Assembly: GCA_001798885.1 (NCBI GenBank)
Contig: MGQW01000080.1
Span: 1-64,000 of the forward strand
Direction: 5' to 3'
Source of the DNA: Deltaproteobacteria bacterium RBG_16_64_85
GTDB taxonomy: Bacteria > Desulfobacterota > Deferrimicrobia > Deferrimicrobiales > Deferrimicrobiaceae
DNA length: 64,000 nucleotides
A model generated the notes under the pieces. It saw only the letters and a program-made list of their open reading frames with translations, was not told the origin of the DNA and made no database searches. This document shows, piece by piece, positions 28,598 to 42,648 of the stretch. Both the position numbers and the translations under genes were made by a program. Positions within the stretch are counted from its first letter, which is position 1. Each line of letters begins with the position of its first letter.

Positions 28598-31500
28598 ATG
28601 GCGATGACCGATCCCGCCCACCCCGTTTCCCGGCTTTTTGCAGGACCTTTTCCCGCGATCGAGGAGAAGCTTCTCTCGCGTCTTCCCGACAAGCTGGTTC
28701 GCGCCGGGGGGTGGGAGCAGGTCCTCCTCGTCCCGTCGAACGAGCTGCGGGAACACCTGCTGCGCCGGCTCGCGGCCCGCTGGGAAGGCGTTGCCGTCGG
28801 GGCTTCCATCCAGACCCTCTTCGATTTCGCGCTCCGGCTGCTCAAACACAGGGGAGTATTTCCCCGGGAGCTGCCCCCGGCCCTGATGTCGGCGGCGCTG
28901 TCCGAGGCGGTCCGGGAGGTCTACACGGGGGGAGGAGGGGACTTCGCGGCGATCGCCGGGACGCCGGGATTCCTTCCGGCGCTCTCCCGCACGCTGACCG
29001 ATCTCGAAGAGGGTTGGCTCGGGGCCGACGTACTCCTCCTGGCGGAGCGGAAGGCCAGAGGAGAGGGCCGTGCCGGTAAGGCGGACCGGTGGGCCGAGTG
29101 GCGCAGGCTCGTCGAGACGGTCGAGCGGAAGGTCCACGCGATGGGAGGGATGACGCGCCGGCGGATCTTCCAGGAAGCCGTTTCCGGGTTCGAGCAGCCC
29201 GGCTACCCCTTCCGCGTTTCCCTCTATGGTTTCTACGATTTCACGCGGCTGCAGTGGACCCTCGTCGAGGCGCTCCTGGGGAGCGGTCTCCTCGACGAGG
29301 CGTACTTCCCGGGGATTTTTCGGGAGGACGGCTCTCTTTCCCCCGCCTGTTTCTACGCGATGCTTACGTGGGATCGCCTCTCGCGCGCCTTCGAGGGGAA
29401 CGTGGTGATTCTCGCCGATCCAGCGCCGCCGGATCTGCGCGCGGTTCGGGAAAGGATCTTCTCCCTGTCCTATCCCGAAACCCTTGCGCCCGCCCCGGTG
29501 ACGATCCTGTCCGCTCCTCACGAGGAGGGCGAAGCGCGGCTGTCGGCCCGCCAGGTCCGCCGCTGGCTCGACCGTCATCCCGGGGAGGAGATCCTGCTGG
29601 TCTCCCGGCGCTTCGAGGAGGATGCGATTTCCGCCTGGGAACGCGCGGCGGCGGAATACGGCGTCCGAACGGTGGAGCGGTTGACCGTTCCTCTCGCATC
29701 GGCCCCGCCGGTACGGGTGCTGCTCCAGATGATCGAGGCGGCCAGGGAGGATTTTCCTCGGAGGAAGGTGATCGACGTCCTCTCTTCTCCGTACCGCCGC
29801 CCTGCGGCCGCGAAGCCCCGCAGACAGCCGCGGCCGGACCTGTGGGACGTCTGGACCCGCGAGTTGCTGGTCGTTTCCGGGAACGACTGGGAGAAGCGTC
29901 TTTCCCGCCTCCGCCCCCGGGATCGGGAGGATGGGGAAGGGGAAGCGGGGGAAGAGCAAAAAGCGCAGCTTGCGCTCCTCAAGGCAGAGGTCCGCGCCCT
30001 TCGTGCATCGCTGCGTCCGTTGCGGGAGGCCAAGGGCTATTGCGGCCTGGCACGGGACCTGCGGCGGATCCTCGTCGGAAATTTCCGCCTCGTCGACGAC
30101 GCCAGCAACGAAGCCGAACGGGACCGCCGGGCCCTCTCCGCGCTCCTCTCGCTGCTGGACGACATCGAACGGATCCCTGCGCGCGCGGTCCGTTGGCCGG
30201 GAGCCGACGAGGCGATTTCCTGGTTTGCGACTCTGCTTGCAAGCCATCGCATCTTCGCCGGAGAGAGAGGCGGGATGCGGGTTCCCGGGGCGGTCATCGC
30301 CGGCGACCTCAACACGCTGCGGGGCGTCACCGCGGACCGGGTGATCTTCCTGTCGGCGAACGAGGACCTCGTACCGGCCCAGATCGACGAGGACCCCCTC
30401 CTGCCCGACGCGGACCGGGAGGCGCTCAACCGGCTGGCGCGGCAGGCGGGGTTCCCCGAGGCCCTTTCCCTCCAGCGGCGCAACGCGGCCCAGGAGAAGC
30501 TCCTGTTCACCTTGCCGGCGGCGCAGGCTCGGCGGGAGATCGCCTTTTCCGTCCTCCGGGCGGACGCCGAGGGCGCCGTGAAGCGTCCTTCCCGGTATCT
30601 TCTCCACCTCCTTGCGCAGTTTGCCGGCCCGGGAGTCTTTGCGGAAGAGTGGGCGTCGGCGGCGAATGCGCCCGTCCGTTTTCTTCCCCGCTCTCCCTTC
30701 GCGATGCTGCGTGCGGAGGGTCCCTTGAGCCCGAGGGAAGAGGTGCTTCGTTCATGGCGCGACGGGTTCCCGCCGAAAGACGGAGCGGACGGGATTCCAT
30801 GGCGCAGGATCGTGGCGACGCTTTCGGAGTGGGAGAGCCGACAGGCGGGGAGTTCCCTCTTTCCCGGTCTCGGGGCGGCTGCGTCGCGGCCGACGTGGAG
30901 CGCGACGGAGCTGGACCTGCTGGCCCGCTGCCCGTACCGGTACTTCCTGCAATACCGGTTGGGACTTACCCCGGTCGAGGAGCCGGAAGAGGAGCTGTTG
31001 CTTACGCCTGCCGAGTCGGGGCTCATCCTCCACGACATCCTCCACTTGCTGGGGAAGGACGTCCTCTCCGGGAAAGGGTGGGGGGACGTCGCGCTCGCAG
31101 CAAGGAAAGCTTTCGCCCGTTTCGCGCGGGAGAATCCCACCGGCCTGCCGGGACTGTTCCACCTGCGGTGCCGGGAGATCGAGCGGGACGCCGCCGCCTT
31201 TGTGGAATGGGAGCGAAGCCGCGCGGGCGACCCGGAAGCGTACCGGGTGGCGGGTGTGGAGCTCCGGTTTACGGTGGCGGGGGAGAGGCGCCTCCCCGCC
31301 TTCCGCGGCAGGGTCGACCGCATCGACCGGGGCGAGGCGGGAGAGGCCGAGATCATCGATTACAAATACCGCGACGGTACGCGCGAGAAGGCGCCGCTCG
31401 AATGGATCCTGCACGGCCTTGCCAACCAGATCCCGGTTTACCTCGCTTTTGCCCGGACGCTTTCACCGCCGCCTCCCGACGTCCGCGCTTCCCTTTTCTT

Positions 31501-31813
31501 TCTGAAGAACGGGGTCCGGCCCGTGACGGTCGCGGGCGAGCAATGGAAAGCCGTGCGGGACGAGTGGTCCGCTGCCCTTTCCGACTGGATCGCGCTCGAC
31601 CGGTCGGGAACGTTCCCGCCTCTTCCCCACCATCGGTTCGGCTACGCGGGCGGTCCTCCGCCGCGATATTGCGACGCCTGCCCCTTCGCGGACCACTGCC
31701 GCGTGTCGCCGCGATACGAGGGGGCGAAACGGGAGACGGAGGCGCTTTCGCGCCGGGTGGGCGAAGACCCCGCCCTGCAGGGGATCGGAGAGCACCGTCC
31801 TGCGATGAAATGA
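28598..31813 (+). CDS. addB: AddB-like subunit of a helicase-nuclease (PD-(D/E)XK nuclease)
   Basis: The ORF from 28598 gives 1071 residues; a second ATG at 28604 is possible. The N-terminal part resembles a degenerate SF1 helicase without a good Walker A. The C-terminal 350 residues hold a RecB-type nuclease: LHDILH, GRVDRIDRGE and the IDYKYRDG catalytic segment. Four Cys form the AddB iron-sulfur staple: the Cys of LARCPYRYF and CDACPFADHC. With AddA it would process DNA double-strand ends. The next gene begins 79 bp downstream and encodes the AddA helicase. Confidence 0.85.
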   Translation: MAMTDPAHPVSRLFAGPFPAIEEKLLSRLPDKLVRAGGWEQVLLVPSNELREHLLRRLAARWEGVAVGASIQTLFDFALRLLKHRGVFPRELPPALMSAALSEAVREVYTGGGGDFAAIAGTPGFLPALSRTLTDLEEGWLGADVLLLAERKARGEGRAGKADRWAEWRRLVETVERKVHAMGGMTRRRIFQEAVSGFEQPGYPFRVSLYGFYDFTRLQWTLVEALLGSGLLDEAYFPGIFREDGSLSPACFYAMLTWDRLSRAFEGNVVILADPAPPDLRAVRERIFSLSYPETLAPAPVTILSAPHEEGEARLSARQVRRWLDRHPGEEILLVSRRFEEDAISAWERAAAEYGVRTVERLTVPLASAPPVRVLLQMIEAAREDFPRRKVIDVLSSPYRRPAAAKPRRQPRPDLWDVWTRELLVVSGNDWEKRLSRLRPRDREDGEGEAGEEQKAQLALLKAEVRALRASLRPLREAKGYCGLARDLRRILVGNFRLVDDASNEAERDRRALSALLSLLDDIERIPARAVRWPGADEAISWFATLLASHRIFAGERGGMRVPGAVIAGDLNTLRGVTADRVIFLSANEDLVPAQIDEDPLLPDADREALNRLARQAGFPEALSLQRRNAAQEKLLFTLPAAQARREIAFSVLRADAEGAVKRPSRYLLHLLAQFAGPGVFAEEWASAANAPVRFLPRSPFAMLRAEGPLSPREEVLRSWRDGFPPKDGADGIPWRRIVATLSEWESRQAGSSLFPGLGAAASRPTWSATELDLLARCPYRYFLQYRLGLTPVEEPEEELLLTPAESGLILHDILHLLGKDVLSGKGWGDVALAARKAFARFARENPTGLPGLFHLRCREIERDAAAFVEWERSRAGDPEAYRVAGVELRFTVAGERRLPAFRGRVDRIDRGEAGEAEIIDYKYRDGTREKAPLEWILHGLANQIPVYLAFARTLSPPPPDVRASLFFLKNGVRPVTVAGEQWKAVRDEWSAALSDWIALDRSGTFPPLPHHRFGYAGGPPPRYCDACPFADHCRVSPRYEGAKRETEALSRRVGEDPALQGIGEHRPAMK

Positions 31814-31826
31814 TCTCATCGATAGC

Positions 31827-31873
31827 GGGGGACACTCCTGGTTTTATCTTCGAGGAAAAAAGAATTTCCCCCC
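31827..31873. repeat. Third, decayed copy of the 46-bp repeat
   Basis: GGGGACACTCCTGGTTTTATC at the left matches copy 2 at 19 of 21 positions. The right arm has decayed to AGAATTTCCCCC. It fills most of the gap between addB and addA. Confidence 0.6.
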
Positions 31874-31892
31874 GTTATCCGGGGTACTCGTA

Positions 31893-34800
31893 ATGGAAAG
31901 CGATCGCATAAGGGCCGTCACGGATTTCGGCCGCGACATCGCGGTGGACGCCTCCGCGGGGACGGGGAAGACGGCGACCCTGATCGCGCGCGTGACGAAC
32001 CTCTTTCTGGCCCGGAAAGAACTCCTCCCCGACCAGGTCCTGCTCCTGACGTTCACCGACAAGGCGGCGGCCGAAATGAAGTCCCGGGTGGTGGAAGGGC
32101 TGGAGCTGCTGCTGACCGCCTGCCGGTCGGCATCCTCCCTGGAAGAAGTGCAGGAAAAGGTCGCGGCGTGGAACTCCCTCGTGCGGGTTCCCGGCGGGGA
32201 GGAGGGGGAGCTTGCGGTCCTCCGGGAGCGCGTGGAAGAGCTGGTGGACGGAGTGGGAAGGCTCTCCGTCACCACGTTCCACTCCTTCTGCCGGCGCATC
32301 CTTCTTTCCTTTCCCGCGGAGGAGGGGGTCGACCCGAGGTTCGAGGTGCTTCCGGAAGGGGAGGCGTCCGACGCATGGGACAGCGCCTTCCGCGCGTTCC
32401 TGCGGTCCGAGTTCGGGGGGGAGAAAACCGATTCCTCTTGGGAGCAGGTGCTCTTCGGCGCACCGGGCCAGGACGCCGTCTGGTCGATGATTCGCCGCCT
32501 TTGCCTTTCCCAGCGGGACCTTCTTGCGGCGGGGGAGCTCGATTTCGGGTCGCCGGCCGATTTCCTCGCGTACCTGAGGCGGGAGTATGCCGGCCCGCTC
32601 GAATGGTTCCGGACCTTCGTCGGCGGGATCGAAGACCCTTCCCACGAGATGGCCCCGGTACTCGCCGATGCCTTGTCGGTTCTAGAAAAGGCATGGGAGG
32701 CGGTTTCGCGGGACGACCTTGCGGCCGCGGCCGCGTTGGCCGCGCAAGGGGTGGTTGCCTTCGGGTTCCGGGCCGACCGGACGAGGAGCAGGAAAAATTT
32801 TCCTCTGCCTTCCGGCTTTACGCTGGCGCAGGCGCGGGACGCGCTGAAGAGTTTCTGGCGGGAGCTGTCGAAGACGCCGGCGGGCGACGCCGCCGCCCGT
32901 TTCCTCGTGGACCGGGCGCGCGCGGCGCTTGCGTTCTACGAGAAGTCGAAGGGGAGCGGGCTCGATTTCATGGACCTGCTGCTCCGTGCGAACGGCCTGC
33001 TCGCGCGGAACCGCGAGGTGGCGGCATCGCTCTCGGAGCGGTTCCGCTACATCTTCGTGGACGAGTTCCAGGACACCGATCCCCTGCAGGCGGAGATGCT
33101 CCATGCCCTCTCCTCGGACGGCTCGCCGGGAAGGCTGTTCGTGGTCGGCGACCCGAAGCAGTCCATCTACGGCTTCCGGCGGGCGGACATCCAGGTCTAC
33201 GCCCATTTCCGGGAGAAGATGCTCTCGCAATCGGGGGAAGGGATCGCGCTCGTCCGCAACTTCCGGAGCCGGCCCGACCTGCTTGCGACCGTCAACGGCC
33301 TCTTCGGACACGTCCTCTCCGGCGGGGAGGATTTCTCCCCCGTGTACGTCCCCGTGGTCCCCCATCGACAGGACCCGGGCACCGGCTCTGCGGTGACGCT
33401 GTACACACTGGGAGAGGAGGTCCGCGAAGCGGAATTCGTTTGCGCGCTGGTCCAGGGGATTGTCGGAAGGGTCGTCGTGGGGGGAAAGGGCGGGGCGCCT
33501 TCGGTTCCGGCCTCGTTTCGCGACATCGCGGTCCTGTACCGGTCGGACACGGGCGGGGAGGTGCTTTCCGCCTTCCGCGAGGCCTTCGGCAAGGCGGGGA
33601 TCCCGCTCGTCGTGCCTCCGCGGAAAGGATTCTATGCCCGTCAGGAGGTGCAGGACCTGCGGATGGTCCTCTCTGCCGTCGATGCGCCGGCGGACCTCTC
33701 CGCGCGATACGCGGCGCTCAAGACGATCTTCTTCGGGCTGCGGGACGAGGAGATCCTGCCGCTCTACGCGGACGGCGGGTCGCCCCCGTCGGCCAGGGTG
33801 CGCGACGCGCTCGATCTCCTGGCGCGCCTCTCCGCAACCAGCGGGAGGGCGTCGCTTTCCGGCCTCCTGGCCGAGCTCTACCGGGAGGCGGGGGTGGAGT
33901 TCGTGGCGGCGCGGCTTCCCGACGGGGACCGCATCGTCCAGAATCTGGCGAAGGCCGCCGGGATGGCGAGGGCGTTCGAGTGGACCGGCGGCGGCTCCGT
34001 GAAGGCGTTTCTCGCCGACCTGCGGCGCAAGACGGAGGAGGACCGGCAGGAAAGCGAGTTCCCCTCCTTCGACGAAGGGGAGAACGCCGTTCAGATATCC
34101 ACCATCCACGCCTCCAAGGGGCTGGAATTCCCCATCGTGATCCTGGCCAACCTCTCGCGGGGGGGAAGGAAGCGCGTCGAGGGGCTTCGGGTGGACCGGG
34201 TCCGGAGGCTTTCCGCGGTGATTTTCCCGGGATTCAAGACCTATTCCGCATTCCGTCAGATTCCCCTCGGCGCGGCAACCGCGACCTTCGAGCAATGGGA
34301 GCAGGCGAAGCAGGACGCGGAGGAGGTCCGCCTGCTCTATGTCGCCGCGACCCGCGCGCGCGACCGGCTCTATCTGGTGGAAGGATCGAAAGGCCAGGGG
34401 TCGGGACAAAGGGATGCGCTCCGAAACGGTCTTTCTCGCGCAACGGACGGCGGAGAGGGGAAGTGCGCCGTGACCGGGCTTTCCGGGACGCGACGGGTCT
34501 TTGACGGGGGGGGAGAGCTTCTGGAAGTTGTGGTTTCGGAGCCGTTGCCGTTGGAAGAGGTTTCCCCCCCGGCGCCGTTCGACCTTTCCTTTATTAAAGG
34601 ATGGGCCCCCCCGCCTTCGGTGCCCCCGCACGTTCTTCCGGAACCGCTCTCCCTCAAGGAGTTCCATGACCGGGAGAAGGGGAAGCAGTTCGGGGAGAAA
34701 GTCCACAAGGCGCTGGAGTCGGCCCCTCCGGTTTTCGCCCCGTGGCCTCCGCGGGATCCTCTGCCGCCCGCCATTTCCTGGGGGGAAGGCGAGGAGCGGC

Positions 34801-35141
34801 GGTGGAAGGAGATCTGCCGGAAGATTTCCTCGAGCGCCTTCTGCAGGAAACTGCGCGGAATGTCGCTTGTCGGGACGGAAGTCCCCCTGCTGGCGTGCAG
34901 GGACGGGCTATCGAGAGAGGAGCGCGCCGACCTGATCGTCCGCTCTTCCGCAGAATACTGGGTAGTCGACTACAAGACGGGGCGGCGGGAGAAGGCTTCG
35001 GAAAAGGATTACTTCCTTCAGGTTCGAACCTACATGGCGATCCTGACGGAATGCTTTCACATACCCGTTCGTGGTTTTATCTGGTACGTCGAAACCGGAG
35101 AAGCCTTGGAAGTGCCTCTTACCTCTCCACGAGGCGGATGA
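31893..35141 (+). CDS. addA: AddA-like UvrD/RecB-family helicase-nuclease
   Basis: The 1082-residue protein begins with a Walker A site (ASAGTGKTATL) and has FTDKAAAEM, a UvrD-type Walker B (FVDEFQDTDPLQ), VGDPKQSIYGFRRAD, ISTIHASKGLEFP and VAATRARDRLY, the ordered SF1A helicase motifs. The last 200 residues are a PD-(D/E)XK nuclease domain with the WVVDYKTGRREKA catalytic segment. This is the AddA architecture. Together with AddB upstream it is the RecBCD-equivalent end-resection enzyme that loads RecA. The start is the ATG at 31893, with only a weak GGGG site. The 3' end overlaps a small convergent DUF1059 gene by 23 bp. Confidence 0.88.
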   Translation: MESDRIRAVTDFGRDIAVDASAGTGKTATLIARVTNLFLARKELLPDQVLLLTFTDKAAAEMKSRVVEGLELLLTACRSASSLEEVQEKVAAWNSLVRVPGGEEGELAVLRERVEELVDGVGRLSVTTFHSFCRRILLSFPAEEGVDPRFEVLPEGEASDAWDSAFRAFLRSEFGGEKTDSSWEQVLFGAPGQDAVWSMIRRLCLSQRDLLAAGELDFGSPADFLAYLRREYAGPLEWFRTFVGGIEDPSHEMAPVLADALSVLEKAWEAVSRDDLAAAAALAAQGVVAFGFRADRTRSRKNFPLPSGFTLAQARDALKSFWRELSKTPAGDAAARFLVDRARAALAFYEKSKGSGLDFMDLLLRANGLLARNREVAASLSERFRYIFVDEFQDTDPLQAEMLHALSSDGSPGRLFVVGDPKQSIYGFRRADIQVYAHFREKMLSQSGEGIALVRNFRSRPDLLATVNGLFGHVLSGGEDFSPVYVPVVPHRQDPGTGSAVTLYTLGEEVREAEFVCALVQGIVGRVVVGGKGGAPSVPASFRDIAVLYRSDTGGEVLSAFREAFGKAGIPLVVPPRKGFYARQEVQDLRMVLSAVDAPADLSARYAALKTIFFGLRDEEILPLYADGGSPPSARVRDALDLLARLSATSGRASLSGLLAELYREAGVEFVAARLPDGDRIVQNLAKAAGMARAFEWTGGGSVKAFLADLRRKTEEDRQESEFPSFDEGENAVQISTIHASKGLEFPIVILANLSRGGRKRVEGLRVDRVRRLSAVIFPGFKTYSAFRQIPLGAATATFEQWEQAKQDAEEVRLLYVAATRARDRLYLVEGSKGQGSGQRDALRNGLSRATDGGEGKCAVTGLSGTRRVFDGGGELLEVVVSEPLPLEEVSPPAPFDLSFIKGWAPPPSVPPHVLPEPLSLKEFHDREKGKQFGEKVHKALESAPPVFAPWPPRDPLPPAISWGEGEERRWKEICRKISSSAFCRKLRGMSLVGTEVPLLACRDGLSREERADLIVRSSAEYWVVDYKTGRREKASEKDYFLQVRTYMAILTECFHIPVRGFIWYVETGEALEVPLTSPRGG

Positions 35142-35298
35142 GGTTGTTCGCCTTCTTCCGGTGCTCTTCCGTGATCTCGATGGCGTGGACGGTCTTGAGG
35201 TGAACGGCGATCTTCCGGACGATCTCTTTTTCTGATTCGTCCTCGACCGCGAAGGTGCAGTTGAGGCCCATCGCCCTGCAGCTGAGTTTTTTCTTCAT
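35119..35298 (-). CDS. DUF1059 small protein
   Basis: The start is the ATG at 35298, with GGAGG six bases upstream, giving 59 residues. It begins MKKKLSCRAMGLNCTF, in which the two Cys are the hallmark of the DUF1059 family, followed by helical sequence with KTVHAIEITEE. Function is unknown; members are small and cytosolic. Its 3' end overlaps the convergent addA stop region. An imperfect palindrome TTGTC/GACAA lies about 30 bp upstream at 35327-35345. Confidence 0.8.
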   Translation of the reverse strand: MKKKLSCRAMGLNCTFAVEDESEKEIVRKIAVHLKTVHAIEITEEHRKKANNLIRLVER

Positions 35299-35412: not shown

Positions 35413-35892
35413 TCAGTGGATCTTCTTCAGGTAGATGAGCTTGTCGTCTCCCTCGTCGTAGTAGTCGGGCAGCGTTGCGGCGAGGGTGCAGCCGATCTTG
35501 ATGTAGAACTCCCGCGTCGTTCCGTAACTCTCCTTCGATGATGTTTCGATCACGAGGAGCCTTCCCTCGCGGCGCTTCACCTCCTCTTCGACGAAGGCGA
35601 CGATTCTCCGGCCGTATCCTTTCCCCATCCGGTCGGCGCGGGTGGCCAGCCAGTAGAGGTCGAAAGTGGCTTTCGTCATCGGATTCTTTCCGAAGCAGGC
35701 GTAGGCGACGACCGTCCCGTCCTCCTCTTCCAGGACGAAAGGATGGTAGTCGTCCTGCCCAGGCCGGGTGAGGGCGATCTCCACCAGTTCCATCGCCACG
35801 TCCACCTCGTGGGGTTTGAACGCGCCCGTGCCGTCGATCAGGCCGCGGACGGCCTCGCGGTCTCCCGCTTCGATCGACCGGATCTTCGTCAT
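35413..35892 (-). CDS. GNAT-family acetyltransferase, terminal gene of the kamA cluster
   Basis: This 159-residue protein starts at the ATG at 35892, overlapping the second ATP-grasp gene by four bases (ATGA). It has the GNAT fold: an N-terminal strand MTKIRSIEAGDREAV, acetyl-CoA loop RMGKGYGRRIVAFVEEE, and C-terminal SSKESYGTTREFYIKIGC. Typical GNAT proteins transfer an acetyl group to an amine. Because it is coupled to ATP-grasp ligases and lysine 2,3-aminomutase, its substrate may be the amino group of a beta-lysine-derived product. The known beta-lysine acetyltransferase AblB is longer, so this is not simply AblB. Confidence 0.8.
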   Translation of the reverse strand: MTKIRSIEAGDREAVRGLIDGTGAFKPHEVDVAMELVEIALTRPGQDDYHPFVLEEEDGTVVAYACFGKNPMTKATFDLYWLATRADRMGKGYGRRIVAFVEEEVKRREGRLLVIETSSKESYGTTREFYIKIGCTLAATLPDYYDEGDDKLIYLKKIH

Positions 35893-36917
35893 CGCACCCC
35901 CCGGGCGAGTCCCAGGCGCAGGATCTCCAGAATCAGCGCTTTGTAGGAAAGGCCCCCTGCGCGGGCTGCCCGCGCCAGCCCCGCGTCGGGGGAGATGTCG
36001 GGGTTGGGGTTCACCTCGAGAACGAACAGCTTGCCGTTGCCGTCGGTCCGGAAGTCCACGCGGGAGTAGCCGCACAACCCGAAGACCCGGGCGCATTCGA
36101 TCGTGAGCAGGGTCAGGCCCGCGCGCAGTTCGTCGGAGACCCCGGCCGGGCACTGCGGGGCGATCTCCGCGTAGGAGGGATGGCCGGGATCCCACTTCGA
36201 CTCGAAGGAGCAGATCCGCCACCGGCGGTTCCGGTAGACGAGCTCCGCGGGGGGGAAGGTGCGGAAAGGATCCTGTGCCGTACCGTTGCCCAGGACGGCG
36301 ACGTTGAATTCCCTCCCTCCAACGAACTCCTCGGCGAGCGCCTCCTGTCCGTACCTCCCGATGACGTGCGCCACCCTTCCTTGAAGCCCCGCCTCGTCCT
36401 CGACGATGCTGTCTTCCGTGATTCCCGCCGACCCGTCCTCCCTGGACGGCTTCACGATGACGGGGAAGGCAAGGCCGGAGCGCTCCCGCGGGACGTCGGA
36501 GTAGAGGCGGAATCCCGGCGTGGAGATGCCGTGGGAGGCGAGGACCCGCTTGGTGAGCGCCTTGTCGTTGCACACCGCCAGCGGCATCGGCCCGTTGCCC
36601 GTGTAGGGGAGCCGGAGCAGCTCGAGGAAGGCGGCCGCGTGGGGCTCCTTTTGCGCGGAGTTCAGCGGGCACTCGCTCAAGTTGAAGACGGCGTCCGCGC
36701 CGAAGGAGCGGAAGGATTCGGCGAGCGCGACGATGTCCTTCCCGAAGGGGACGATCCGCGCCGCCACCCCCGACTCGTTGAGCCCGTCCGTGACCGAGCG
36801 GGCGCTGACGGCGAGGTCCATCGTCTCCCGCATCTTCGCATCCGTCACCCCCGCGAGGGATTCCTCCACGGAGGTGTAGAGCACCGCCACGTTTTTCCCG
36901 GCGAGCTCCTGCGGCAT
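35889..36917 (-). CDS. D-Ala-D-Ala-ligase-like ATP-grasp enzyme, second of pair
   Basis: The start is the ATG at 36917, one base overlapping the stop of the first ligase gene (TGATG), giving 342 residues. ATP-grasp features are FPVIVKPSREDGSAGIT (phosphate-binding loop), EEFVGGREFNVAVLG, RVDFRTDGNGK and VLEVNPNPDISPD with Mg-binding Glu/Asn. The N-terminal half (VAVLYTSVEES, AVFNLSEC) is the preATP domain. It is similar to but different from the first ligase beside it. Canonical Ddl makes the D-Ala dimer of peptidoglycan; this copy lies outside any cell-wall cluster, so another carboxylate-amine ligation is more likely. Confidence 0.8.
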   Translation of the reverse strand: MPQELAGKNVAVLYTSVEESLAGVTDAKMRETMDLAVSARSVTDGLNESGVAARIVPFGKDIVALAESFRSFGADAVFNLSECPLNSAQKEPHAAAFLELLRLPYTGNGPMPLAVCNDKALTKRVLASHGISTPGFRLYSDVPRERSGLAFPVIVKPSREDGSAGITEDSIVEDEAGLQGRVAHVIGRYGQEALAEEFVGGREFNVAVLGNGTAQDPFRTFPPAELVYRNRRWRICSFESKWDPGHPSYAEIAPQCPAGVSDELRAGLTLLTIECARVFGLCGYSRVDFRTDGNGKLFVLEVNPNPDISPDAGLARAARAGGLSYKALILEILRLGLARGVR

Positions 36918-37906
36918 CACGGCGGGATCCCCTGGCGGGAGAGAGCGTGTGAGAGAATCTCCGAGATGAGGGAGAGGTAGGGCATCCCCATCCGGTCGGC
37001 CATGATCGGGAGGTCGCCGTACCCCGGAGAAAGGCCAGGGAGGGGGTTGCACTCGATGAACTGCGGGACCCCCTTCGCGTCGATCCGGAAGTCGATCCGG
37101 GAGAAGTCCCTGCATCCCAGCAGGCGGTAGATCCCCAAGGCGCACCGCTCGATCCCGGCGACGACCCCGGGCGCGAACTGCGGCGGACACCGGTATTCGA
37201 CCTGGTTCTCCCAGTCGCGCTTGACCTCGAGGGAATACACGAACTCCTCGTTCGGCACATTTTTTGGCGCGATCTCCATGACGCCGACCACGCGCGGACT
37301 CTCGTTCCCCAGGATCCCCACGGTGACCTCGGGGCCGGCGATGAACTCCTCGACGATGGCGTCCTGGAGGTACGTCCCGGTGACGAACCGCACCATCTCC
37401 CGCGCCTGTTCCGGCGAGGCGGCCCGGGAGGAGAGTCTCACCCCCTTGCTCGACCCCTCGAAGGCCGGCTTTACGATGACGGGGAAGGCAAGACCAGCGC
37501 CGGTGAACGCATCGGCCGAGCGGAAGGAACGGAACTTCGGCGTGGGGTACCCTTCGGCGGCGACCAGCCGCTTGGCGACCGGCTTGTCGAGCGTGACGCA
37601 GAGCGTCAGCGGGTCCGAGCCGACGTAGGGGATGCCGAGCATCTCCAGGAGGGCGGGGACGTGCGCTTCCCGGCACCGTCCCCCTTCCCCTTCGGCGATG
37701 TTGAAGACGATGTCGGGCCGGCTTCGCCGCAGCGCGTCGATGATGCCGGGTCCCGCTCCCAGCCGGGCGACTTCGTGGCCGAGGGCGGAGAGCGCGTTGC
37801 AGAGGTGTCCCACGGTCGCCTCCGAGTCGTACTCCTCGAAGGCGTCTTCAGGGAGGTGGGCGGGAGGGTTTGCGGGCCTTACGTTGTAGGAGAGCCCGAC
37901 TCGCAC
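36917..37906 (-). CDS. D-Ala-D-Ala-ligase-like ATP-grasp enzyme, first of pair
   Basis: The start is the GTG at 37906, with GAAGGAGACG before it and 28 bases of overlap with the kamA 3' end. The 329-residue protein opens MRVGLSYNVRP, then has the ATP-grasp loop VIVKPAFEGSSKGV, EEFIAGPEVTVGILG, RIDFRIDAKG and ECNPLPGLSPGYGD. The last motif closely matches Ddl-type ligases. It would ligate an amino-acid carboxylate to an amine using ATP. Two such ligases in series, after a beta-amino-acid-forming enzyme, suggest ordered addition of two building blocks. Confidence 0.82.
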   Translation of the reverse strand: MRVGLSYNVRPANPPAHLPEDAFEEYDSEATVGHLCNALSALGHEVARLGAGPGIIDALRRSRPDIVFNIAEGEGGRCREAHVPALLEMLGIPYVGSDPLTLCVTLDKPVAKRLVAAEGYPTPKFRSFRSADAFTGAGLAFPVIVKPAFEGSSKGVRLSSRAASPEQAREMVRFVTGTYLQDAIVEEFIAGPEVTVGILGNESPRVVGVMEIAPKNVPNEEFVYSLEVKRDWENQVEYRCPPQFAPGVVAGIERCALGIYRLLGCRDFSRIDFRIDAKGVPQFIECNPLPGLSPGYGDLPIMADRMGMPYLSLISEILSHALSRQGIPP

Positions 37907-39198
37907 CGTCTCCTTCTCCGGGCCATACGCTCGTTGCCCGCGGGGATGAGCGTCTTGATTTCTCCGGTCAGCAGGCGGTACACGTCCAGGCGGGGAGGAA
38001 TCCCCTCCGTCTCCGGCTGGGCGGAAGGCCGCCCGCCGTCACGCGGCTCCTCGTAGCTGACGATGATTCCCTCGTAATTGCGCAGGATCGTCCGCTGCTC
38101 GCCCATCGAGAGGATGTAATTCGGCATGAGCGGGATCTTCCCCCCGCCCCCGGGGACGTCCACCACGAAGGTGGGGATGGCCAGGCCGGTGGTGTGCCCC
38201 CGCAGCGCCTCCATGATCTCGACGCCCTTCGACAGCCGCGTCCGGAAGTGTTCCAGCCCCCGCACCTGGTCGCACTGGAAGAGGTAGTAGGGCCGCACCT
38301 TCGCCTTGACGAGCTGCGTGTTGAGACGGCGGATGATCTCCGGGTGGTCGTTGATCCCCTTGAGGAGGACCGTCTGGTTGCTCACGGGGACGCCGGCTCG
38401 GAGCAGCCGGTCGCACGCCTTGCGCGCCTCCTCGGTGACCTCGCGCGGATGGTTGAACTGGGTGTTGAGCCAGATCGGGCCGTACTTCGAAAGCAAAGCG
38501 CACAGCTCGTCGTCGATCCGCATCGGGAGGACCACCGGCACGCGCGTGCCGATCCGGATGATTTCCACGTGCGGGATCTTCCGCAGGTTCTTCAGGATGA
38601 ACTCGATGCGATCGGTGGGAAGCGTGAGGGGGTCGCCGCCGGAGACGATGACGTCCCGGATCTCCTCGTGCCGCTTGATGTAGGAGAACATCTTGGTGAG
38701 CTCGAACTCCGTCTTCGCCCCTTCGCCCAGCGCCCAGATCCGCTTCCGCGTACAGTGCCGGCAGTACATCGAGCAGAAGTTGGTCACCACCATCAGGCAG
38801 CGGTCGGGGTAGCGGTGCGTGAGGCCCGGGACTGGGCTGTCCTTCTCCTCGTCGAGCGGATCGTCCTCGCCGACGCCCATCCCGAAATACTCCTCGGTGC
38901 CCGGGATCGCCTGGAGGGCGATGGGGTCCGCGGGGTCGTCGAACCGGATGAGCGACAGGTAGTAGGGAGTGATGCCGAGGTGATAGATGTCGTTCACGCG
39001 GTCGAGGATGGCGGCTTCTTCCGGAGAGAAGTAGCGAAGTCCGGCCAGTTCCCGGATGGAGGTGATGCGGTGGGAAAGCTGCCAGCGGTAGTCGTTCCAT
39101 TGCTCCCGGGTCACCTGCGGCCACGGCAGGCCTACGGGATTCTGGCTGCCCGGGCCGTTACGCGGCGGAACGGAATCGTCACCAAGGTTTGGGTCCAT
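37879..39198 (-). CDS. kamA: Lysine 2,3-aminomutase family radical SAM enzyme
   Basis: The 439-residue protein starts at the ATG at 39198 with GAGGAGGAC. It has the radical SAM cluster motif CSMYCRHC and KamA-family blocks: TRKRIWALGEG, VSGGDPLTLP, the IGTRVPVVLP segment, the QFNHPREVT segment and FVVDVPGGGGKIPLMPNY, including the PLP Lys region. Family members turn L-lysine into L-beta-lysine; EF-P-modifying EpmB and glutamate mutases are close relatives, so the substrate is not certain. It overlaps the first ATP-grasp gene by 28 bp and follows the XRE-cupin gene by 66 bp. Confidence 0.85.
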   Translation of the reverse strand: MDPNLGDDSVPPRNGPGSQNPVGLPWPQVTREQWNDYRWQLSHRITSIRELAGLRYFSPEEAAILDRVNDIYHLGITPYYLSLIRFDDPADPIALQAIPGTEEYFGMGVGEDDPLDEEKDSPVPGLTHRYPDRCLMVVTNFCSMYCRHCTRKRIWALGEGAKTEFELTKMFSYIKRHEEIRDVIVSGGDPLTLPTDRIEFILKNLRKIPHVEIIRIGTRVPVVLPMRIDDELCALLSKYGPIWLNTQFNHPREVTEEARKACDRLLRAGVPVSNQTVLLKGINDHPEIIRRLNTQLVKAKVRPYYLFQCDQVRGLEHFRTRLSKGVEIMEALRGHTTGLAIPTFVVDVPGGGGKIPLMPNYILSMGEQRTILRNYEGIIVSYEEPRDGGRPSAQPETEGIPPRLDVYRLLTGEIKTLIPAGNERMARRRRRCESGSPTT

Positions 39199-39264
39199 GT
39201 CCTCCTCGTGCGCTCTTCGCCGACCAGGGTTGGGTTGCCCGGTTCCTCCCGTTTTCTTATCGCC

Positions 39265-39801
39265 TTATCGGCCGCTCGTCTTTACCCAGAGAAATTCGAC
39301 GGGGGCCTTTCCCTTGTTCGAAAAGGCGAACTCCTTCTCGGGGTAGAAATAGAGGCTCTCCCCTTTTCGTGCCACGTAGGTGGCGCTCCCCAGCCGCAGG
39401 CCCAGCCGGCCGGAGAGGACGAACACGTAGTTCTCCCCTTCCTGCGCCGGTTCGAGCGGTGTCTCCTTGCCCGGCTTGATCAGCGCCCGATAGGCGACCA
39501 TGGAGCGGTAGCGGCTCTTGGGGATCGAAGTCTCGAAGGACTGGTATCCCGTCACGTCGGAGGGAAGCGCTTCCGATTTCCGGAAGAGCACCTTCTCCTC
39601 CTCGTCGTCGGCGAAGAAGGAGGACGGGGTTTCGTTCAGGGCGGAGAGAATTTCGAGGAGGTTGGTAACCGAGGGGGACGTGTGGTTCCGTTCGATCTGG
39701 GAGATGGCACCCTTGGTGAGGCCGGCACGCTCCGCGAGGTCGGCCTGGGCAAGTCCGTTGATCTGCCGCAGGTGCTTGATCCTTGCCCCGATGTCGATCA
39801 A
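39265..39801 (-). CDS. XRE-family regulator with C-terminal cupin domain
   Basis: The likely start is a TTG at 39801. The 178-residue protein has an N-terminal HTH (residues 6-62: IKHLRQINGLAQADLAERAGLTKGAISQIER) and a C-terminal cupin at about 100-178 (PAQEGENYVFVLSGRLGL, KGESLYFYPEKEFAF). XRE-cupin proteins such as PuuR bind small amines or metabolites through the cupin and repress nearby catabolic or biosynthetic genes. It is the first gene of the kamA-ligase-GNAT unit. The promoter and a palindrome lie directly upstream, so autoregulation is likely. The Shine-Dalgarno GGGGGG is about 14 bp from the TTG, unusually far. Confidence 0.82.
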   Translation of the reverse strand: MIDIGARIKHLRQINGLAQADLAERAGLTKGAISQIERNHTSPSVTNLLEILSALNETPSSFFADDEEEKVLFRKSEALPSDVTGYQSFETSIPKSRYRSMVAYRALIKPGKETPLEPAQEGENYVFVLSGRLGLRLGSATYVARKGESLYFYPEKEFAFSNKGKAPVEFLWVKTSGR

Positions 39802-39810
39802 TACGGTTTT

Positions 39811-39827
39811 TTAAACCCCCCGTTTAA
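39811..39827. promoter_or_regulatory. Palindromic operator candidate of the XRE-cupin operon
   Basis: On the minus strand TTAAAC-GGGGG-GTTTAA is a perfect inverted repeat with 6-bp arms and a 5-bp centre. It lies a few bases downstream of the predicted transcription start, where a bound repressor would block initiation or early elongation. Confidence 0.55.
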
Positions 39828-39839
39828 TAATCTATCCAA

Positions 39840-39868
39840 ATTTTATGAACATGGAAAAACTCTGTCAA
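39840..39868 (-). promoter_or_regulatory. Strong sigma70 promoter of the XRE-kamA operon
   Basis: TTGACA (39868-39863) and TAAAAT (39845-39840) are exactly 17 bp apart on the minus strand. The expected start site is near 39833, about 32 bp before the TTG start codon. Confidence 0.75.
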
Positions 39869-40259: not shown

Positions 40260-40335
40260 GGGGGAGTAGCTCAGCTGGGAGAGCACCACGTTCGCAACGT
40301 GGGGGTCGAGGGTTCAAATCCCTTCTCCTCCACCA
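40260..40335 (+). tRNA. tRNA-Ala (anticodon CGC)
   Basis: A full 76-nt cloverleaf is visible, including an encoded CCA. The acceptor stem GGGGGAG pairs with CTCCTCC and includes the G3:U70 pair that marks alanine tRNAs. The D-loop region TAGCTCAGCTGGGAGAGC, an anticodon stem CCACG/CGTGG with loop TTCGCAA (anticodon CGC, codon GCG), and the T-loop GGTTCAAATCC are all standard. It stands alone between the XRE region and priA. Downstream there is a T-run but no clear terminator stem. Confidence 0.97.
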
Positions 40336-40410
40336 CCTATTTTTCTTGTCGGCTTGACCCCACCTTCCCGCATCGCCTGGCGTGCCAAGCCGGGGTAAGA
40401 TGACATCAAG

Positions 40411-42648
40411 ATGTCCACGCCGCCGACAACGCCGCTGTATGTGGAAGTGGCCGTGCCGCTTCCGATCGACCATACGTTCACCTACCGGGTTCCGCAGGGG
40501 GAGGAAGGGCGCGCGAAGATCGGCGTTCGCGTCCTCGTCCCGTTCGGGCCGCGGCGGGTCACCGGCCTGATCGTCGCGGAGGTGGACGGGTCCGCGCTCG
40601 AAGGCCGGGAGGCAAAACCGGTCCTTGCCTTTCTCGACGAGGAACCGTACGTCACTCCCCGCCACCTCGCATTCCTCTCCGCGGCGGCGCGCGAGTGCCT
40701 TTCGCCCATCGGCGAGATGCTGCGCGCGGCCCTCCCCCGCGGGCTTCCCCGGAGAGAGGCTCCGTCGGTTCCCCGGACCGAAACATTTTTCCATCCGGCG
40801 CCCGGCGCCGACGAATTGCCGATGACGCCCAAGCAGCGGCAAGTGGTCGCGGCGGTCCTCGAGGCGGGGGAGATCTCCGCCTCGGAGATTTCGGCGCGAG
40901 TCCCCGGCGGGGCGGACGCCGCCCGGAGACTTGCGGCGAAGGGAATGCTCTTGTCCTCGACGCGGGAGAAACCTGTCGGGCTTTCCGCTGCCCATCTTCC
41001 CGACACGTCGGGGGAGATCGTGCCCACGCATCAGCAGGAGGCGGCCCTGGCGAAGGTCGGCGTGGCCCTTGCCTCGGGGAAGTTCGCCGCGTTCGTGCTC
41101 CACGGGATCACGGGGTCCGGAAAGACGGAGGTCTACCTGCGGGCCATCGAGCAGGTCCGCCTCACGGGGAGACAAGCGGTGTTTCTCGTCCCCGAGATCG
41201 CCCTCACTCCGCAACTGCTCGGGCGTGTGAAGTCCCGGTTCGGGGAGGGGGTGGCCGTCCTGCACAGCGGTCTTTCTCCCGCCGAGCGTGCGGCCCAGTG
41301 GAAACGGGTCCGCGCCGGCGAGGTCTTCCTTTCCGTCGGGGCGCGCTCCGCCGTCTTCTCTCCCTTCCCCGTGCCGGGGCTGTTCATCGTCGACGAGGAG
41401 CACGATTCCGCCTATAAGCAGGAAGACGGGATCCGCTACCAGGCGCGCGACCTCGCCCTGCTGCGCGGGAAAATGGAGGACGCCGTCGTCCTGCTGGGCT
41501 CCGCGACGCCCTCCGCGGAATCCGTCCACAGGACGCGAACGGGGGAGGCCGTGCTCCTCTCCCTGCCGGAGCGGATCGGCGGAAGGGAGCTCCCGGAAAT
41601 CCTGGTCGTGGACCTCAAGGATCGTGCGGGCATGCGGGGAGCCGACCGCTACTTCTCCCCCGAGCTGGAAGCGGCGATCGAAGAGACCCTCTCCCGCGGG
41701 GAGAAGGCGATGCTCTTCCTGAACCGGAGGGGATACGCACCCGCCATCACCTGCCTGGACTGCGGGGAGACCGCTCGCTGCCGGAACTGCAGGGTCTCGT
41801 TGACCTTCCACCAGCAGCACGGCGCGCTGTTGTGCCACTATTGCAACGCGCGCACTGCGCCCCCCGAGAAGTGCGCCGCGTGCGGCGGGCACAGGATCGC
41901 CCAGGTGGGGATCGGCACGGAGCGCCTGCTTGCATGGGCCGCAAAGCGGTGGAAGGACGCCCGGGTCGCGCGCCTCGACTCCGACGTCAGTCGGCGGAAG
42001 GGAGCCTATGGAGAGATTCTCTCCCGGATGCACGCGGGGGACGTGGACATCCTCGTGGGGACCCAGATGATCGCCAAGGGGCACGATTTCCCCGAGGTGA
42101 CGCTCGTGGGAGTGCTGCTGGCCGACCTGTCCCTCTCCTTTCCCGATTTCCGGTCGGCGGAGCGGACGTTCCAGATCTTGACGCAGGTGGCGGGGCGCGC
42201 GGGGAGGGGAGATCGTGCGGGCAAGGTGATCGTCCAGACCCTGTCCCCGGATCACGTCTGCATCCGCATGGCGGCGAGGCACGATTTCGCCGGTTTCATG
42301 GCGGAGGAGCTGGCGGCGCGGGAGGCCCTCGGCTACCCGCCTTTCGGGCGGATGCTCCTCCTGCGCCTGTGGGGACCTTCGGCCGGGAAGGTCCGCGAGG
42401 CGGCGGCGGAGGTGGCGGAGGCGCTGGCGGGACCGGTATCCGCCGCGGGGATCCAACTGCTGGGCCCCGCGCCCTCGCCCATTTCCCTCGTGAAGCGGAA
42501 GCACCATTACCAGGTTCTCCTCAAGATGCCCGTGCGGTTCCCCGTGGGAGATTTCTTCCCTTCGCTGATGCGCTCCCTGCGCGACGTCGTCCGCAAGTAC
42601 AGCGTCCGCATGGAGGCCGACGTCGATCCCTACAACATGATGGTCTAG
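40411..42648 (+). CDS. priA: Primosomal replication-restart helicase PriA
   Basis: The 745-residue protein begins with the PriA 3'-OH-binding domain (VEVAVPLPIDHTFTYRVP). The helicase core follows with Walker A TGSGKTEVYL, DEEH-type Walker B (VDEEHDSAYKQ), GSATPS and QVAGRAGRG. The zinc region has eight Cys: CLDC, CRNC, CHYC and CAAC. It reloads the replisome at repaired or stalled forks. The start is the ATG at 40411, with only a weak upstream GGGG. The gene stands alone, 76 bp after the tRNA. Confidence 0.93.
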   Translation: MSTPPTTPLYVEVAVPLPIDHTFTYRVPQGEEGRAKIGVRVLVPFGPRRVTGLIVAEVDGSALEGREAKPVLAFLDEEPYVTPRHLAFLSAAARECLSPIGEMLRAALPRGLPRREAPSVPRTETFFHPAPGADELPMTPKQRQVVAAVLEAGEISASEISARVPGGADAARRLAAKGMLLSSTREKPVGLSAAHLPDTSGEIVPTHQQEAALAKVGVALASGKFAAFVLHGITGSGKTEVYLRAIEQVRLTGRQAVFLVPEIALTPQLLGRVKSRFGEGVAVLHSGLSPAERAAQWKRVRAGEVFLSVGARSAVFSPFPVPGLFIVDEEHDSAYKQEDGIRYQARDLALLRGKMEDAVVLLGSATPSAESVHRTRTGEAVLLSLPERIGGRELPEILVVDLKDRAGMRGADRYFSPELEAAIEETLSRGEKAMLFLNRRGYAPAITCLDCGETARCRNCRVSLTFHQQHGALLCHYCNARTAPPEKCAACGGHRIAQVGIGTERLLAWAAKRWKDARVARLDSDVSRRKGAYGEILSRMHAGDVDILVGTQMIAKGHDFPEVTLVGVLLADLSLSFPDFRSAERTFQILTQVAGRAGRGDRAGKVIVQTLSPDHVCIRMAARHDFAGFMAEELAAREALGYPPFGRMLLLRLWGPSAGKVREAAAEVAEALAGPVSAAGIQLLGPAPSPISLVKRKHHYQVLLKMPVRFPVGDFFPSLMRSLRDVVRKYSVRMEADVDPYNMMV

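Follow-up and report, generated by a model that had tools for sequence, protein, structure and literature searches.

A conserved KamA, double ATP-grasp and GNAT operon predicted to ligate and acetylate beta-lysine

Beta-lysine is known mainly as an osmolyte precursor, a part of antibiotics, a tag on EF-P and a step in lysine fermentation. Among the described systems closest to the present locus, the AblA/AblB pathway has been proposed for Pelobacter carbinolicus (PMC3543383), and NAGGN synthesis (Ngg/AsnO) yields an osmoprotectant dipeptide by N-acetylation and ATP-driven formation of a peptide bond (PMC8070244). Within the KamA family, the S enantiomer of beta-lysine is made by lysine 2,3-aminomutase (LAM) and the R enantiomer by EpmB (PMC2821294). 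No published pathway combining KamA with ATP-grasp enzymes was found in the literature searched, which covers few subscription journals. Here we describe an operon that encodes both.

Layout and regulation of the locus

The window, the whole 64,000-nucleotide stretch analysed here, is part of contig C80 of a 2.2-Mb genome (99% complete) whose closest relatives with a name are MAGs of groundwater Deltaproteobacteria. A preliminary description of this DNA had reported five genes on one strand, overlapping or at most 66 bp apart; all five were found there on the minus strand, and the enzymes listed (KamA, two Ddl-like ATP-grasp proteins and an N-acetyltransferase) were recovered with Pfam and NCBIfam. 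The gene calls could be kept apart from the start of AG2, which is better read as ATG at 36917.

39840-39868, minus strand: sigma-70-like promoter TTGACA-17-TAAAAT
39812-39826, no strand assigned: palindrome TAAAC-N5-GTTTA, between the -10 box and the start codon
39265-39801, minus strand: XRE-cupin regulator (HTH_3 and Cupin_2, PuuR-like; Pfam/NCBIfam), TTG start
37879-39198, minus strand: KamA, radical SAM lysine 2,3-aminomutase with LAM_C (TIGR03820, PDB 2A5H)
36917-37906, minus strand: AG1, Ddl-fold ATP-grasp ligase (PF07478, AlphaFold2), GTG start
35889-36917, minus strand: AG2, second Ddl-fold ATP-grasp ligase (PF07478, AlphaFold2)
35413-35892, minus strand: GNAT N-acetyltransferase, homologue of PDB 2R7H

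The gap between the XRE-cupin gene and KamA is 66 bp. KamA and AG1 overlap by 28 bp, AG1 and AG2 meet at TGATG and AG2 and GNAT at ATGA, junctions that suggest translational coupling of the four enzyme genes. The flanks are ordinary, with AddB-like and AddA/RecB-like helicase-nuclease genes, tRNA-Ala(CGC) and PriA (window 28598-35141 and 40260-42648). A small ORF of 59 aa downstream of GNAT (35122-35298, minus strand) resembles DUF1059 by eye; it was rejected as a sixth operon gene, as NCBIfam gave no match to it and none of the relatives checked has a homologue at the locus.

The strong promoter and the palindrome announced ahead of the operon are both present. The promoter is near consensus, with 11 of 12 bases (0.1 such sites were expected in shuffles), and its TTGACA box is kept in the relatives compared. 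The palindrome, TAAACGGGGGGTTTA, has invariant arms and a variable centre in nine relatives. It occurs as a single copy in the 2.2-Mb genome, and a search for a wider regulon gave no second operator copy anywhere in that genome. This single occurrence suggests a dedicated autorepressor. Judged from sequence, the XRE-cupin protein has the features of one (HTH, cupin and a palindromic site of its own), and the palindrome is its probable operator. The TTG start codon of the regulator is ATG or GTG in several relatives.

Sequence features of the four enzymes

The best profile of KamA was lysine 2,3-aminomutase TIGR03820, at 517.1 bits a near miss of the cut-off of 525.4; it falls under this AblA equivalog threshold and is therefore filed as LAM-like, not as AblA. 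The KamA of most relatives of family f9 exceeds the cut-off. The protein matches PDB 2A5H (E 2e-131), keeps the cluster motif CxxxCxxC as CSMYCRHC and the PLP-lysine motif GGGGK, and carries the LAM_C domain. Both lysine-type aspartates are kept, at residues 310 and 347 (Asp293 and Asp330 in 2A5H, where they bind the epsilon-amine of lysine); the pair is also kept at every linked-locus KamA where the region was read. By this pair KamA is of the lysine type, in line with the initial suggestion that it is likely a beta-lysine aminomutase. Other types were discarded: glutamate 2,3-aminomutase (467.7 bits for a cut-off of 650, Asp pair not replaced), the EpmB type (232.6 bits for a cut-off of 369.3, LAM_C present and hence not the truncated form) and the arginine type (scores and Asp pair). 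Lysine 5,6-aminomutase, of lysine fermentation, was not found in the genome; the control genomes gave no match either, which makes this a weak argument against fermentation.

AG2 is 36% identical to AG1, and in the tree AG2 sequences form a single clade apart from AG1 (support 0.95). Both proteins belong to the Ddl superfamily (PF07478) but fall well short of every Ddl and Van family cut-off. Their confident AlphaFold2 models (pLDDT 92.9 for AG1 and 90.8 for AG2) have Ddl structures as nearest PDB folds and show the small-substrate Ddl fold with no extra domains. Residues were numbered on E. coli DdlB, with which the window genome's own Ddl is consistent. The Ddl ATP and magnesium residues K97, K144, E187, K215, R255, D257, E270 and N272 are kept in AG1 and AG2. 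The position of Tyr216 is Arg in the window AG1 and Trp in AG2 (overall, Arg, Trp or Glu in AG1 and Trp in AG2), and Ser281-Leu282 is replaced by Gly-Asp in AG1 and Ala-Gly in AG2. With ATP and metal residues retained and these positions exchanged, both look like active amide ligases that would use other substrates. It had been cautioned that one of them might be the essential cell-wall Ddl; neither is, as the true ddl is found on contig C65, flanked by murB and ftsQ (murB-ddl-ftsQ-ftsA).

For GNAT, the closest solved relative is PDB 2R7H (E 1e-31), which its depositors named a putative D-alanine N-acetyltransferase and for which we know of no activity. The enzyme has its own motif, conserved across 72 loci.

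Distribution and gene context

We surveyed 297 genomes of the phylum to which the window organism belongs, and AG1 was present in 104, about one third. Gene order is conserved in relatives, a point on which the preliminary description had made its pathway depend: the distance between AG1 and KamA is no more than 7 kb in 77 genomes from 32 families and no more than 1.5 kb in 65 genomes from 28 families, counts that include related genomes. KamA was found in 100 of the 104 genomes with AG1 and in 68 of the 193 without it (Fisher p 1e-27, overstated as kinship is ignored). In one of the four exceptions, G027, the operon is interrupted by a stretch of unknown bases. Outside the phylum, in records that are mostly MAGs, the AG1-AG2-GNAT-KamA string or a close variant occurs in Aminicenantes, Ignavibacteria/Melioribacter, Kryptonia, Calditrichota and Omnitrophota. 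Such a string is also found in Bathyarchaeota and in a Nitrososphaerales archaeon; in this archaeal version (L101-L103, L135) KamA and AG1 share one strand and AG2 is divergent.

Among the identified neighbours of the operon loci there was no exporter, NRPS or carrier gene. An exported natural product was rejected on this ground, and together with the wide distribution it favours an intracellular product over an antibiotic. Separately, in Ignavibacteria (L078-L081, L087, L094, L097, L105, L108) a lone AG2-like gene and a conserved C39-peptidase-like gene are divergently oriented, often with an isochorismatase-like gene; this is another uncharacterised ATP-grasp pair.

A different context was seen in 13 genomes of the phylum: here agmatinase and pyruvoyl-dependent arginine decarboxylase directly precede AG1-AG2-GNAT, which do not lie beside KamA. 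A lysine-type KamA is encoded elsewhere in all 13, and in the ten examined (L153-L162) it stands behind a conserved MerR-like small regulator of about 100 aa. The polyamine-linked loci (L041, L042, L049-L053, L057, L082-L086, L100) usually contain GNAT and often hold a gene of the deoxyhypusine synthase family. In the AG1 tree their sequences are nested among the KamA-linked ones, so the tie to KamA is the broader one. The polyamine linkage hints at an amine partner and is a lead only, since unrelated housekeeping genes are found in these strings as well. In the window genome agmatinase, decarboxylase, RimI and PyrD lie together on contig C11 without ligases.

Two further genes were observed in these surroundings. 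A third, RimK-like ATP-grasp gene is placed between arginine decarboxylase and AG1 (L049:6110-7051, with the same cluster at L082 and L114). An HDAC-family protein occurs at some KamA-AG1-AG2 loci (L043:10141-12411, L064:7916-9667, L069:7440-9173, L167); in L043 and L064 it is fused to GNAT domains, suggesting an acetylation/deacetylation step.

Proposed pathway and comparison with described systems

The conserved gene order, the lysine-type KamA, the true Ddl elsewhere and the residue pattern of the ligases together give good support to a conserved pathway in which beta-lysine, the predicted substrate, is ligated and acetylated. That the operon would serve, more specifically, as an intracellular route to a small amide of beta-lysine is in our judgement moderately probable. 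Going by the chemistry of the enzyme families, KamA would move the amino group of L-lysine from the alpha position to C3, and a classical LAM is expected to give the S form of beta-lysine. AG1 and AG2 would both be ATP-dependent, each converting a carboxylate to an acyl phosphate and making one amide bond; between them they would link beta-lysine to one or two partners (amino acids or an amine). GNAT would acetylate one amine. The XRE-cupin protein would repress the operon through the palindrome, its cupin sensing a pathway metabolite, and the product would most likely be retained intracellularly, to act as a stress solute or polyamine-like protectant. AG1, AG2 and GNAT may nevertheless act on a substrate other than beta-lysine. 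Two points count against the beta-lysine amide pathway: several lineages link the ligases to putrescine genes and not to KamA, and KamA may have a second job via EpmA.

The first of these points has its own reading, in which AG1, AG2 and GNAT act on a diamine (for instance putrescine or agmatine) and beta-lysine is the acid that becomes activated, giving acetylated beta-lysyl-polyamine conjugates. The 13 genomes with ligases behind agmatinase and arginine decarboxylase, all with KamA elsewhere, agree with it, as do the PuuR-like regulator and the HDAC-family protein (acetylpolyamine amidohydrolase-like) at some KamA loci. We hold it to be doubtful, because polyamine-linked AG1 sequences branch within the KamA-linked ones, because those operons also carry RimI, PyrK and PyrD, so that the linkage may be incidental, and because the window organism has its polyamine genes on a separate contig.

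The second point concerns EF-P, a role of KamA that had been set aside at the outset as not explaining two ligases. That objection stands, and the dismissal was too quick: the window genome encodes EpmA (290.9 bits, just over the cut-off of 286.9) and EF-P with the target lysine at its tip (PGKGGAF), no EpmB was found in it, and the operon KamA is its sole KamA-family gene, which may thus also supply EF-P beta-lysylation. The EF-P, EpmA and KamA genes are spread over contigs C11, C14 and C80. That KamA mainly feeds EpmA, with ligases and acetyltransferase as passengers or finishers of the modification, nevertheless seems unlikely. EpmA chemistry needs no ligases; G081 and G030 carry EpmA beside its own EpmB-type KamA and, separately, an AG-linked KamA; no EpmA passes the cut-off in at least six of the sampled genomes that carry AG1-AG2 and KamA (G016, G054, G119, G173, G197, G283); and the products of LAM and EpmB are opposite enantiomers. 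It is improbable, too, that the operon makes N-epsilon-acetyl-beta-lysine with GNAT standing in for AblB and the ligases serving some separate purpose. KamA and a GNAT are indeed present and AblB (TIGR03827) is absent from the genome, in a search where control genomes gave positive matches, but two translationally coupled ligases are kept with GNAT across many families, and this GNAT is of a different, 2R7H-like family. Attachment of beta-lysine by the ligases to protein, peptidoglycan or lipid has a precedent, as ATP-grasp enzymes such as RimK modify macromolecules in other systems; we consider it very improbable here, since the operon has neither a wall gene nor a gene for a conserved substrate protein next to it and both ligases are modelled as small-substrate folds.

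The beta-lysine amide pathway would thus concern a gene set without known product in about one third of the sampled genomes of the phylum and in members of other bacterial phyla and of the archaea. A further widespread use of beta-lysine, if true, would supply a missing part of anaerobic core metabolism. A bolder version is conceivable, though we would not expect it on balance: an ancient pathway, spanning several bacterial phyla and archaea, whose products, acetylated oligo-amides of beta-lysine that may also be conjugated to polyamines, would form a new class and serve anaerobes generally as a protectant or cofactor inside the cell. The enzymes are for the most part soluble, have a single domain and are directly assayable.

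Compared with Ddl and Van ligases, AG1 and AG2 share the fold and the ATP and magnesium residues, but they differ in scores, in the Tyr216 and Ser281-Leu282 positions and in the presence of a true Ddl elsewhere. PDB 2R7H gives GNAT a solved relative whose name is itself only putative. With EpmA/EpmB the locus has in common a KamA-family enzyme, predicted here too to make beta-lysine, and EpmA occurs in the same genome; however, the window KamA is a full-length LAM with LAM_C whereas EpmB is truncated, and that system has no place for ligases or GNAT. The likeness to AblA/AblB lies in a lysine 2,3-aminomutase beside a GNAT and in the beta-lysine intermediate, here a predicted one; in the window operon two ATP-grasp ligases stand in between and KamA falls under the AblA cut-off. 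NAGGN synthesis likewise couples acetylation to an ATP-driven bond, giving a small acetylated dipeptide, and has a local repressor. The window operon differs in its separate ligases and GNAT and its predicted beta-lysine input, and contains neither an Ngg-type acetyltransferase-ligase nor an asparagine synthetase gene. Although the locus thus falls outside the definitions of both, the logic of the operon resembles NAGGN synthesis fed by the first step of AblA/AblB.
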